Positions 25,945 to 29,891 of a stretch of DNA of 64,000 bases are shown piece after piece. Position numbers and translations under genes: made by a program. Position 1 is the stretch's first letter, and each line of letters opens with the position of its first letter. This stretch comes from Aeropyrum camini SY1 = JCM 12091 (lineage in GTDB: Archaea > Thermoproteota > Thermoprotei_A > Sulfolobales > Acidilobaceae). Location: assembly GCF_000591035.1 (NCBI RefSeq), contig NC_022521.1:1054001-1118000 (forward strand), read 5' to 3'. The notes beneath the pieces are model-generated. The model was not told the origin of the DNA and did no database searches. It saw only the letters and a list, made by a program, of their open reading frames with translations.

Positions 25945-26028
25945 TGTTCCAACCCCGCATCCCGAGGCTCTCCAGCCATCAGGGTGTCTCTAGCGGCCTT
26001 AACATCTATTATTCTCCCCCACAGTACC

Positions 26029-26736
26029 ATGTCAATTGTAAGGCGCGGGAGAATGGGGGTAGTTGGGGTTAGAGTAGAAGAGCCTTTGGCGAAGCTTGGC
26101 GTCAGGCTTGTCTATATAGTCTTCGACGGCGTCTCGGTGGGCGAGTCTCCAGAGGGTCTCGTCCAGACCCTTAGATCTGTTGAGGACGAGGTTGTTCAGG
26201 CCTTCGCCGGGCCCGAGGCTCTAAAGGACGATCCCAGGGTTAGAGCTTACAGGAGGTTCCTCTGGAGGCTTGGCATAGACCCTACCAAAGTGAGGCCGAG
26301 TAGCGAGGCTCTAGCCCGTAGGGTTCTGAGGGGCTCCAGAATACCCCTTATAAACAATGTTGTTGATGCTGGCAACATAGCAAGCCTCAAGACGATGGTT
26401 CCCATAGGCCTCTACGATCTAGACACTGTGAAACCGCCTCTAAGGCTGACCCTCAGCCGGGGGGGAGAGGTCTTCGAGCCTATAGGCGGGAGGCCGCAGA
26501 CACTACCCAAAAACTACCCCATACTCGTGGACTCCCAGGGCCTGGTTATGCACGTCTACCCACATAGAGACTCGAAAGCGTCAATGATAACGCGCTCAAC
26601 CAGGAGGGTGCTGGCTATAGCCGCGGGTGTGGAGGGGGTGGAAACAGGGGATCTTAGGAGGGCTATAGAGATACTCTCGGGGCTTCTGGAGAAGTTCGCG
26701 GGCGCCAGGCCGCTAGGACATGCTGTGGAGGTGTAG
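26029..26736 (+). CDS. B3/B4 tRNA-editing-like domain protein
   Basis: Related to the B3/4 domain of phenylalanyl-tRNA synthetase beta, a fold that in PheRS hydrolyses mischarged Tyr-tRNA-Phe. Stand-alone archaeal copies are uncharacterised. Evidence is the DPRVRAYRRFLWRLGIDPTKVRPSSEAL block, RIPLINNVVDAGNIASLKTMVPIGLYD and the late ILVDSQGLVMHVYPHRDS. The open frame reaches back to 25984; ATG 26029 is chosen because a TATA-like CTTAACAT near 25997 would start transcription almost at it. ATG 26053 is a further possibility. The next gene begins four bases after the stop, suggesting an operon with the IMPase and the TtuA-like gene. Confidence 0.88.
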   Translation: MSIVRRGRMGVVGVRVEEPLAKLGVRLVYIVFDGVSVGESPEGLVQTLRSVEDEVVQAFAGPEALKDDPRVRAYRRFLWRLGIDPTKVRPSSEALARRVLRGSRIPLINNVVDAGNIASLKTMVPIGLYDLDTVKPPLRLTLSRGGEVFEPIGGRPQTLPKNYPILVDSQGLVMHVYPHRDSKASMITRSTRRVLAIAAGVEGVETGDLRRAIEILSGLLEKFAGARPLGHAVEV

Positions 26737-26739
26737 GGG

Positions 26740-27543
26740 GTGCACGACGCGGAACAACTTAGAAGGGTGGCCGTCAAGGTCTCCTCAGAGGCGGCCGGGC
26801 TCCTAAGGGATATGGCGTGTAGCGAGGACCTCGGGAGGGTTATTACAGGTGAGACGACGGTCGCCGACAAGAAGGCTGAAGACTACATTGTTGACATGCT
26901 GCGGAGCGAGCTGGAGTCGGTGCAGGTTATAAGCGAGGAGGCCGGGGGGGTGGCTTCGAGGGCTTCCGACGCTCCTATAGCTCTTGTAGACCCGCTGGAC
27001 GGGAGCACTAACTACCTATCCTGCATAACCTGGTGCTCGGTGAGCATAGCCTTCGCAGACCCGCGGAGCGGCGAGGTCCTGGCAGGGTCTGTAGCCCCTG
27101 TTTACAGCGGCATGCCAGTCTCCTTCTCACGGGGGGGAGGCTGCTACCACGGGGGGGTTAGGTTTGGAAAACCTGGTATACGGGGGTCTATAATATCGGT
27201 TTACGTAGACGAGCCCGGCGCAGTTGAAGCCGTGGCGGGAGCTATAGGCAGGTTGAAGGGGTTGAGGAGGGGCTTCAAAGTCAGGAGCCTGGGTAGCGCC
27301 GCCCTAGAGCTCGCCTACACAGCCCTAGGCTATATAGCCGTGTTCGTGGACCTAAGGGCTAGGCTGCGCAACATAGATGTGGCTGCGGCTGTAGGTGCTA
27401 TCAGAGAGTGCGGCGGCGTTGTCATGGACGGGCGAGGCTATCCCCTTAGGATTGGCGTGTGGAGCGTCGAAAGAGTCGGCAGCGTAGTCGCATCTCTAGA
27501 CGAGACTCTGGCCAGGATCGCCGTAGAAGGGGGAAGTGGATAG
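26740..27543 (+). CDS. suhB: Inositol monophosphatase / fructose-1,6-bisphosphatase family phosphatase
   Basis: Metal-dependent sugar phosphatase. The 267-residue protein has the metal ligands in SEEAGG (EE), VDPLDGSTNY and the C-terminal NIDVAAA version of the WDxAAG motif. Archaeal members hydrolyse inositol 1-phosphate and often fructose 1,6-bisphosphate, serving compatible-solute or lipid head-group synthesis and gluconeogenesis. GTG start at 26740 behind GTGGAGGTG, four bases after the previous gene. Its 3' end runs to within three bases of the next gene's likely start. Confidence 0.93.
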   Translation: MHDAEQLRRVAVKVSSEAAGLLRDMACSEDLGRVITGETTVADKKAEDYIVDMLRSELESVQVISEEAGGVASRASDAPIALVDPLDGSTNYLSCITWCSVSIAFADPRSGEVLAGSVAPVYSGMPVSFSRGGGCYHGGVRFGKPGIRGSIISVYVDEPGAVEAVAGAIGRLKGLRRGFKVRSLGSAALELAYTALGYIAVFVDLRARLRNIDVAAAVGAIRECGGVVMDGRGYPLRIGVWSVERVGSVVASLDETLARIAVEGGSG

Positions 27544-27545
27544 GC

Positions 27546-28406
27546 TTGGAGGCTCCAGCCGGCCCCAGGCCCATGTGCAGCTTATGCCGCGTTAGACCGG
27601 CAGTCTACTACAGGAGGTTCAGCGGGCACAGGCTGTGTAGAAGGTGCATGAAGACGGCGCTGGAGAGGGGTGTTAAAAGGAGCCTCCGCGGCTCGAACGT
27701 CTTCAGGCCGGGAGTCAGCATACTCGTCTACCCCTCGGCAACAAACCCCCCGGCAAGCCTCGCCTTCGCCAGGCTAGTCGGCCTTGTGGAGAGGAGCTAT
27801 GGGGCTAGGGTTTACGCCGTCCTGCCCAGCTATATCAAGGTCTACAGTGGCCTCGGCTTGCTCAGAGATTCTGTCGAGCTTGTGGAGCTGCCTGCACAGG
27901 TGGAGAGGGCTGCTGAGCGTCTAGAGAGTGTTGTGTGGGCGCCTAGGCTCCTCAGGCTGGAGAGGGGTCTAGCCTCGGTCGCCGCCGAGCTGTTGGGGCT
28001 GGATGCGGCGGTTCTACCGATAACTAGAACCGTGATAGGCATGATAGGTGTTGAAGCTCTAATATCGGCTAGCCTCCACTACATGTGGGACCTCGACGCC
28101 CCTCAGGCGGGTGGTGGAAGGCCTGTTGTGCTCGGGCTCAGGAATGTGGAGGCAGAGTTTATAACGGGGTATGCAGCCTTGGAGAGGTTCGACGCCTCCT
28201 CAAGGGTTAAACCAAAATACTCGTTTAAATACGTGTATAAAGCACTTGTGACTGACGACAAGCCCGAGCTGGAGTTCAGCAGCGCATCAACCATAAGCCT
28301 CCTAGCACGCGCCTTGGAAGGCGGCAAATGCAGGTGTAAAGCCTGTGGAGCCCCCATAGCCTGTGGAAAAGAGTTTTGCGAGGACTGCCAGTCTGTATGG
28401 GGCTGA
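27546..28406 (+). CDS. TtuA/Ncs6-like protein with lost PP-loop (probable pseudoenzyme)
   Basis: Shaped like the tRNA 2-thiolation enzymes TtuA/Ncs6. The N-terminal MCSLC...CRRC zinc finger with AVYYRRFSGHRLC matches the family, and the C-terminal CRCKACG...CEDC zinc finger also matches. But where the SGGKDS ATP-binding PP-loop should be, after RPGVSILV, the sequence reads YPSATNPPAS, and the central Cys residues that hold the Fe-S cluster in TtuA are absent (LPITRTVIGMIG). So structure appears kept while catalysis is not. TTG 27546 is the chosen start (287 residues); ATG 27573 is the alternative; an open frame extends to 27459 inside the IMPase gene. Probably co-transcribed with it. Confidence 0.75.
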   Translation: MEAPAGPRPMCSLCRVRPAVYYRRFSGHRLCRRCMKTALERGVKRSLRGSNVFRPGVSILVYPSATNPPASLAFARLVGLVERSYGARVYAVLPSYIKVYSGLGLLRDSVELVELPAQVERAAERLESVVWAPRLLRLERGLASVAAELLGLDAAVLPITRTVIGMIGVEALISASLHYMWDLDAPQAGGGRPVVLGLRNVEAEFITGYAALERFDASSRVKPKYSFKYVYKALVTDDKPELEFSSASTISLLARALEGGKCRCKACGAPIACGKEFCEDCQSVWG

Positions 28407-28594
28407 AGGAAGAAAATATACCCCCGTGCCGCGGAGGGCAAACGTTAGGGATGACGAGCGGGGATCAATGAGTCAGCAGCCGCTTCAGGAGCCCCGGGGG
28501 GCTGTGACGTTATGGGCCGGCGCTACTGACCCATTGTTTTCCCATGTTTAAATCCTGCTCAATCCAGAATGGATAGTTGGTGGCTCTAGCTGTG

Positions 28595-28834
28595 ATGTCC
28601 GAGGCTATTGTCGCCTACGTTTTGATAAACGTTGATGTGGGTAAGGAGAAGGAGGTGTTGGACGAGATTGTGAGGAGGTATGGCAGGAATGTTACGGAGG
28701 CTAGGGTTACCTACGGCGATTTCGACCTTATTGTAAGGCTTGAGGCGAGCAACATGAGGCTTCTAGACAAGATAGTCACGGGCATAAGGAGCATACCGGG
28801 CGTTTTGAGGACTACAACCCTTATAGCCTCCTAG
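28595..28834 (+). CDS. Stand-alone AsnC/Lrp ligand-binding (RAM) domain protein
   Basis: About 79 residues forming just the alpha-beta effector domain of Lrp/AsnC regulators: AYVLINVDVGKEKEVLDEIVRR, VTEARVTYGDFDLIVRLEA, ILRSIPGV-type ending (IRSIPGVLRTTTLIAS). There is no DNA-binding part. Such stand-alone domains are usual in archaea and may pair with full regulators. ATG 28595 is chosen; TTG 28577 and GTG 28592 are in frame, and a GGTGG at 28579-28583 serves as ribosome site. A TATA-like GTTTAAATC (28546-28554) precedes. It is convergent with pelota, overlapping by 14 bases. Confidence 0.88.
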   Translation: MSEAIVAYVLINVDVGKEKEVLDEIVRRYGRNVTEARVTYGDFDLIVRLEASNMRLLDKIVTGIRSIPGVLRTTTLIAS

Positions 28835-29891
28835 CCTCCTGCGGGACCGGGTATCTTAGAATGGCCACCACTCCGCCGAAGCTCGCCAGCCTTTCCCCGG
28901 CTGGGGAGTCGTCGGGTATGATAATCACCCTTCCCCCCATAGATTCCACGAGCCTTAAGGCCTCGTCAACAGCCTCCCTCTCGGCATCGTCCGGCGAGTG
29001 GAGGAGGCTGTCTACTAGGAGAACGGTGTCAACAGCTCCCATCCTGGCTACTGCGAGGACCTCCTGTGGCGTGTAGGCTACAGTGTCCCTCGACTTGGCT
29101 ATCCTCCTTAGAAACTCCTCGAGCACCTCCTCGGCCTCGACTATGCTAAGCTCCCTCAGTATCCTGGTTACTGTTTCCCTCCTAAGAGCTTCTCTAACCC
29201 CGGCGACACCGCCCATTGAGGTGTCAACTGTTGCCACTTTAAGCGAGGGCATTGCTCGCTGCACCTTCTCGGCCACCCTGGCTTTGAGGAGGCCAGGACC
29301 TGCTATGACCGCTATGGGGGCCCTGTGCCTTGAGGCCTCCTCCACTATCCTCCCCGCGGCCCTGTCTATATACTTCTCTATCTCCTGCTCACGCGATGGA
29401 TCGTCCTTCCCGGGGAGCCTTGCAGAGGTGTCCTCTAGAATCTTCATGCCATGACCCGCCAGAACGGCTAGGGCGAATTCGTCGTAGTCAACTGCAGCCA
29501 CGACTGCAGTCCCCCTAGCCCTACCCGAGGCCAGCCTATCCAGCTCCTTTTCACCCCACCCCTTCTCCCTCTCAACCACAAGCCACGTGCCTATAGAGAC
29601 AGCGGTTGAGTGCCTCCTTCCTTTCACGCCGAACTCGTCGGGGCCTTCAACCACTATACCGCTTATCCTCAGCTTCCCTGTGAAAGGCTGGAACTCGATG
29701 GAGTCGAGTCTTATGCTGAGGGTCATAGCAACCCTCTCCTTCCTGCCCGAGCCCACCTGCACGTCTCTGTATGTGCGTATTCTCACCACATCACCAGGTC
29801 TGAGCGTGATCCTCAGCAGCCAGAGGTCCTCCTCGCTCTCTGGCCTCAGCCTAACTATCTTCCGCTTGTTGTCTAGGACCTCGACGCGCAA
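28821..29891 (-). CDS. pelA: Pelota (Dom34) ribosome-rescue factor
   Basis: eRF1-like protein that, with aEF1alpha and ABCE1, splits stalled ribosomes. In archaea aEF1alpha, encoded later in this window, is its partner. The 356-residue protein has an Sm-like N-terminal domain (DNKRKIVRLRPESEEDLW...), a middle domain with GRARGTAVVAAVDYDEFALAVL, and an L7Ae-like C-terminal domain (TVLLVDSLLHS...VIIIPDDSPAGERLASFGGVVAILRY). It lacks the GGQ motif of release factors, as expected. Divergent gap to valS-side genes is short and it lies downstream of valS on the same strand. Confidence 0.96.
   Translation of the reverse strand: MRVEVLDNKRKIVRLRPESEEDLWLLRITLRPGDVVRIRTYRDVQVGSGRKERVAMTLSIRLDSIEFQPFTGKLRISGIVVEGPDEFGVKGRRHSTAVSIGTWLVVEREKGWGEKELDRLASGRARGTAVVAAVDYDEFALAVLAGHGMKILEDTSARLPGKDDPSREQEIEKYIDRAAGRIVEEASRHRAPIAVIAGPGLLKARVAEKVQRAMPSLKVATVDTSMGGVAGVREALRRETVTRILRELSIVEAEEVLEEFLRRIAKSRDTVAYTPQEVLAVARMGAVDTVLLVDSLLHSPDDAEREAVDEALRLVESMGGRVIIIPDDSPAGERLASFGGVVAILRYPVPQEARRL

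Follow-up and report, generated by a model that had tools for sequence, protein, structure and literature searches.

The two-part design of the wobble-uridine (U34) tRNA thiolase, in which Ncs6/Ctu1 is paired with Ncs2/Ctu2, is described until now only in eukaryotes. Ctu2 has lost the cluster cysteines, retains its zinc fingers, and is required for thiolation; models pair it with Ctu1 as the two NcsA chains are paired in the homodimer, and no soluble human Ctu2 has been obtained (PMC10067955). A yeast variant of Ncs2 stabilizes Ncs6, and Ncs2 is modelled to touch the tRNA core (PMC10450187). Archaea, according to published accounts, use a single protein or homodimeric NcsA, with the heterodimer having arisen in eukaryotes (PMC10067955, 2023; PMC12645042, 2025). 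In the thermophilic S. acidocaldarius, U34 thiolation has been measured as s2Um34 (PMC7668247), and a eukaryote-like Urm1 is under study (PMC12645042). No description of an archaeal Ncs2-like subunit was found in the openly accessible literature.

We analyzed a 64,000-nucleotide stretch of the Aeropyrum camini SY1 genome (NC_022521.1, positions 1,054,001 to 1,118,000), hereafter the window. It carries a gene for a catalytically dead NcsA/Ncs6 paralogue, which we term a pseudo-thiolase; such proteins form a previously unnoticed family. The features of the locus, in window coordinates, are as follows.

25984..26736, + strand: B3/4-domain gene, a neighbor in Aeropyrum only
26740..27543, + strand: inositol-monophosphatase-family (IMPase) gene, 2 bases upstream of the pseudo-thiolase gene, a neighbor in Aeropyrum only
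27546..28406, + strand: pseudo-thiolase, catalytically dead NcsA/Ncs6 paralogue of 286 aa (ORF reading, family profile, fold search, dN/dS); start codon TTG, with alternatives GTG at 27459 and ATG at 27573 on the same strand
27576..27647, + strand: N-terminal zinc finger C11-x2-C14 ... C31-x2-C34, TtuA_LIM_N-like (family alignment)
27732..27758, + strand: site of the ATP-binding SGGKDS loop, reading PSATNPPAS (alignment to NcsA)
27936..27965, + strand: site of [4Fe-4S] ligands 1 and 2 (NcsA CxxCGxxRR), lacking cysteine (alignment)
28014..28034, + strand: site of the catalytic HNLDD motif, reading LPITRTV (alignment)
28191..28208, + strand: approximate site of [4Fe-4S] ligand 3 (NcsA ECP), lacking cysteine (alignment)
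28263..28268, + strand: family signature Pro-Glu, P240-E241, where canonical NcsA has Pro-Gly (alignment)
28335..28388, + strand: C-terminal zinc finger C264-x2-C267 ... C278-x2-C281 (alignment)

A first-pass annotation, made from the DNA letters and their open reading frames, had described a TtuA/Ncs6-like protein that keeps both zinc fingers and has lost its ATP and Fe-S sites. The reading frame bears this out: all eight finger cysteines (C11/C14/C31/C34 and C264/C267/C278/C281) are in place, the PP-loop position carries the sequence given in that annotation, and residues 35 to 261 are free of cysteine, leaving no [4Fe-4S] ligand. The orthologue in a same-genus genome is 78% identical, and the ratio dN/dS for this pair of Aeropyrum genomes is 0.11, indicating purifying selection; the pseudo-thiolase gene is therefore a real, selected gene.

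As a single query, the window protein matches known families weakly. Its match to Pfam TtuA_LIM_N (PF22082) has an E value of 0.005 and a score of 17.3 bits, below the cut-off of 27; its match to NcsA (6scy) has an E value of 0.23, and a single-sequence search of the genome contigs returned no relatives. Other family members match PF22082 at up to E 1e-8. A family profile built from 21 relatives and searched against the whole PDB recovers 5mko (E 1e-16) and 6scy (E 8e-13) at full length, and its significant matches are exclusively TtuA and NcsA (E 1e-16 to 6e-8), placing the proposed TtuA/Ncs6 kinship beyond chance with no unrelated family matched. Alignment of the family to canonical NcsA with hhalign gives a probability of 99% over 266 columns.

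The AlphaFold2 model of the window protein, computed from seven sequences using the six relatives of a tighter alignment that had recruited them together with one canonical NcsA, reaches a pLDDT of 85.4 and a pTM of 0.85. Foldseek ranks NcsA 6scy first (TM 0.67, E 2e-10), followed by TtuA chains and then TilS, and the best 17 PDB fold matches are all NcsA or TtuA. Model and alignment together give the predicted fold of the PP-loop thiolases, flanked by zinc fingers, as the first-pass annotation had led us to expect. A TtuA-rooted tree places the family on the NcsA side, with an SH-aLRT of 100 on the branch splitting TtuA from NcsA plus the family. Within NcsA, the family is weakly nested among proteins of the wider phylum, possibly as a long-branch artefact; since its branches are long, only the first split is trusted.

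NcsA (6scy) is thus the best fold match, with the same zinc-finger plan and the same side of the tree, while TtuA (5mko, 3vrh, 5b4e) shares the fold and finger plan and provides the best sequence-profile match. Unlike NcsA, the pseudo-thiolase has no PP-loop, HNLDD motif, or cluster cysteines, and carries Pro-Glu for Pro-Gly; unlike TtuA, it lacks an active site and groups with NcsA. The SGGKDS loop and the three [4Fe-4S] cysteines are defining features of NcsA, and a protein in which they are absent is not NcsA.

Alignment of 72 pseudo-thiolase members with 31 NcsA rows from gene-bearing genomes separates what the family has lost from what it retains. The SGGKDS loop is gone in all aligned members and intact in 30/30 readable NcsA rows. 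Cluster cysteines 1, 2, and 3 persist in 1/72, 14/72, and 12/72 members, respectively; their loss is therefore total in the window protein and not family-wide, as ~12-14 of the 72 relatives retain one or two. Among columns conserved in NcsA, the ones that have all but vanished in the family belong chiefly to the PP-loop, GIxGY, cluster/arginine, and HNLDDxxQT positions, and the survivors lie chiefly in the zinc fingers, with the N-terminal finger kept in 68-69 and the C-terminal finger in ~45 of the 72 members. Two proteins run against this trend, L021 (genome G138) and L022 (G010), in which the N-terminal finger cysteines are partly or wholly gone and the rest is retained.

Other positions are conserved within the family. 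The LP proline at the HNLDD position is 88% conserved, and the glutamate of the Pro-Glu signature is present in 68/68 aligned members. As the strongest new signature, this invariant glutamate could mark an enzyme re-purposed by building a fresh active site around it and other new residues. Such an enzyme is improbable, however: few other polar residues are family-wide, the conserved columns being the fingers, structural residues, and that glutamate, and some lineages have shrunk to ~240 or 184-222 aa, which is unusual for a new enzyme.

Members of the family are found in 10 of the 11 sampled families of the order (numbered f1 to f11), which goes beyond what the first-pass annotation had named as support, a shared fold lacking the PP-loop throughout the order. 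The first profiles detected members in f1-f5, f8, f10, and two f7 genomes and scored f6 and f11 as lacking the gene. A broader profile overturned that absence, recovering a shortened member of ~240 aa in each of the 14 f11 genomes searched and, as weak matches, 184-222-aa members in 2/3 f6 genomes. We take f11 to be the family that holds Sulfolobus acidocaldarius (genome G042). An extension of the family beyond the order was rejected, the best outside matches being canonical SGGKDS proteins.

Long branches, the shrinking size in f6 and f11, and a split copy in one genome (G062) might suggest a decaying, functionless paralogue heading for loss. This is very improbable given the low dN/dS between the two Aeropyrum genomes and the fingers and Pro-Glu signature kept across most families. 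The split copy (G062:C1:589153-589916, L023) consists of frames of 126 and 190 aa, reflecting a frameshift or an assembly error, and is the only one of its kind seen in f1.

The first-pass annotation had proposed a tRNA-binding pseudoenzyme, possibly a regulator or partner of an active paralogue elsewhere, and two active-looking paralogues are indeed encoded in the window genome: NcsA at C1:373138 (~373 kb; 342-aa frame; SGGKDS, CTYC, and ECP all present) and TtuA at C1:1255280. Among the gene-bearing genomes tested, NcsA is present in 30/30 and TtuA is missing from 13/30, so the relevant paralogue is NcsA and not TtuA. TtuA forms a homologous dimer, which makes a role beside TtuA in U54 thiolation, as partner or regulator, conceivable for the window genome; the absence of TtuA from those 13 genomes largely refutes such a role, the tree sides with NcsA, and we rejected this candidate as the least probable of the alternatives. 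In two TtuA-like f9 proteins (L112, L116), the PP-loop reads SGGVDS and not SGGKDS.

On the NcsA tree, the proteins of the order fall into two types, A and B, the latter on a long stem. Type A comprises most f7 and all f9 genomes sampled, and type B everything else, including f6, f11, and the window genome. Pseudo-thiolase is present in 42/43 type-B genomes and in 0/16 type-A genomes; 32 genomes had been picked for carrying the gene, a choice independent of NcsA type. Both f6 and f11 had type-B NcsA while still scored as gene-less, which predicted the gene that was then found in f11. The rpoB tree groups f7 as a single clade, with its two gene-bearing genomes, G082 and G088, nested among f7 genomes without the gene. 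G082 possesses both type-B NcsA and pseudo-thiolase amid type-A relatives; in G088 (78% complete), a search for NcsA found none. The nesting of G082 implies that the gene and type-B NcsA changed jointly at least two to three times on the rpoB tree, with no discordant case. Because only two to three changes are independent, the association falls short of significance (sign test p 0.5).

Covariation of distances points the same way with less specificity. In mirror-tree comparisons, pseudo-thiolase correlates with NcsA given rpoB (partial r 0.62), and so do the controls c3, a conserved neighbor gene described below (0.55), and pelota (0.56); beyond rpoB, c3, and pelota jointly, the partial r is 0.60 (13 genomes), and of these values it is this joint one that singles out NcsA. 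Since both controls also correlate in the simple tests, this support is weak and non-specific. The overall test for reciprocal residue loss between type-B NcsA and pseudo-thiolase is null (Fisher p 1.0), and the five sites that fit such a pattern (Y17, V57, F212, Y265, and S270) are overall not above chance. Type-B NcsA has replaced Y17, T42, D87, F212, and Y265, residues otherwise invariant in type-A NcsA and in NcsA outside the order; Y17 and Y/F265 are retained in pseudo-thiolase, again in a pattern not above chance overall.

Further NcsA arrangements were observed. One genome (G037:C8:191338-193763) carries three tandem NcsA-like frames of 142, 178, and 357 aa and also has pseudo-thiolase. 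Another, which is without pseudo-thiolase, carries two type-A-like NcsA genes (G111:C1:279405 and C2:21311).

Because its active site is lost, it is conserved across the order, and it occurs only with type-B NcsA, pseudo-thiolase probably serves as the non-catalytic member of an enzyme made of two proteins, which favors the first-pass proposal of a pseudoenzyme partnered with an active paralogue: the fold is kept, the catalytic sites are gone, and NcsA accompanies it in every gene-bearing genome tested. We assign a probability of about 0.63 to its being the non-catalytic subunit of a heterodimeric U34 tRNA thiolase together with type-B NcsA. An ancestral gene for homodimeric NcsA would have duplicated; one copy, type-B NcsA, would have retained the [4Fe-4S] cluster along with ATP binding and catalytic activity, while the other kept the fold and zinc fingers and lost the active site. 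The dead copy would now hold the tRNA and stabilize or orient NcsA, the role that Ncs2/Ctu2 plays toward Ncs6/Ctu1. Physical pairing, tRNA contact, and the U34 substrate are the putative parts of this proposal. Beside the few independent changes, the unspecific mirror-tree correlation, the null residue test, and the weak f6 matches, further observations count against the heterodimer: euryarchaeal NcsA is active alone (PMC10067955), pseudo-thiolase is unlinked to ncsA in the window genome, and type-A lineages manage without pseudo-thiolase.

By analogy, a Ctu2-like working mode is the most likely one. Like Ncs2/Ctu2, pseudo-thiolase is a degenerate NcsA/Ncs6 homologue with its [4Fe-4S] cysteines gone, its zinc fingers kept, and a co-occurring active Ncs6-type protein (PMC10067955, PMC10450187). 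The family differs in being archaeal, in its size of about 180-330 aa, and in its PP-loop, wholly lost in pseudo-thiolase where Ctu2 still has a degenerate SGGxxS (PMC4014090). In a scan of 21 members at E ≤ 1, Pfam CTU2 (PF10288) is absent from the 25 families listed out of 35, and it has no match anywhere in the window genome at E ≤ 10. Judged by its sequence, with no PF10288 match and a more degraded PP-loop, pseudo-thiolase cannot be filed as Ctu2. The missing match is compatible with a common origin, as both families evolve very fast. It nevertheless seems quite unlikely that one duplication event gave rise both to this family and to eukaryotic Ctu2, with a heterodimeric U34 thiolase and an Urm1-like sulfur carrier already present in archaea before eukaryotes.

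That a catalytically dead NcsA paralogue is conserved across an archaeal order and tied to a single NcsA type suggests an independent, archaeal step from homodimer to heterodimer. That step would include Sulfolobaceae, where genetics works, so that the role of a dead subunit becomes testable in a simple system. The heterodimer would also explain an uncharacterized gene beside the thermosome gene in these archaea.

The gene neighborhood differs between Aeropyrum and the rest of the order. The first-pass annotation had placed pseudo-thiolase in an apparent operon with the IMPase and B3/4 genes; both neighbors are present in Aeropyrum, and the arrangement is confined to that genus, so we rejected it as a guide to function. 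The typical neighbors are thermosome, thioredoxin-like, and c3 genes (f1 outside Aeropyrum, f2, f3, f4, f7, f8, f10, and f11), with ribonucleotide reductase and RpoK often near the pseudo-thiolase/thermosome locus; in one f5 genome (G036), pseudo-thiolase lies ~2 kb from c3. In the type-A genomes, 11/11 examined loci have the order c3-thioredoxin-thermosome with pseudo-thiolase missing. The absence is therefore genuine, and the ancestral locus probably contained the gene. Its relocation beside the B3/4 and IMPase genes in Aeropyrum makes the operon a local accident.

This setting bears on a role apart from NcsA, in which pseudo-thiolase would bind tRNA or some other RNA through its zinc fingers as a stand-alone chaperone, sensor, or regulator forming no stable NcsA complex, and the thermosome/thioredoxin-like neighborhood would reflect a stress or folding function. 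The fingers are the best conserved part of the protein, and most families share the thermosome/c3/thioredoxin neighborhood. We nonetheless regard this role as unlikely, though the strongest of the alternatives: it leaves the strict link to NcsA type and the joint change in f7 unexplained, and the link to type-B NcsA persists in Aeropyrum and f6, where the locus has moved. A subunit working with type-B NcsA remains the preferred explanation.

The c3 gene (~250 aa; L159:9994-10725, - strand; orthologues L292-L318) has no match above cut-off in Pfam or NCBIfam. It is conserved across the order beside the thioredoxin-like and thermosome genes, whether pseudo-thiolase is present or not. Downstream of pseudo-thiolase in the window, a gene at 28577-28834 (+ strand) encodes a stand-alone Lrp/AsnC ligand-binding domain without the DNA-binding part; this gene and the pelota gene (28821-29891, - strand) share 14 bases where their ends overlap.
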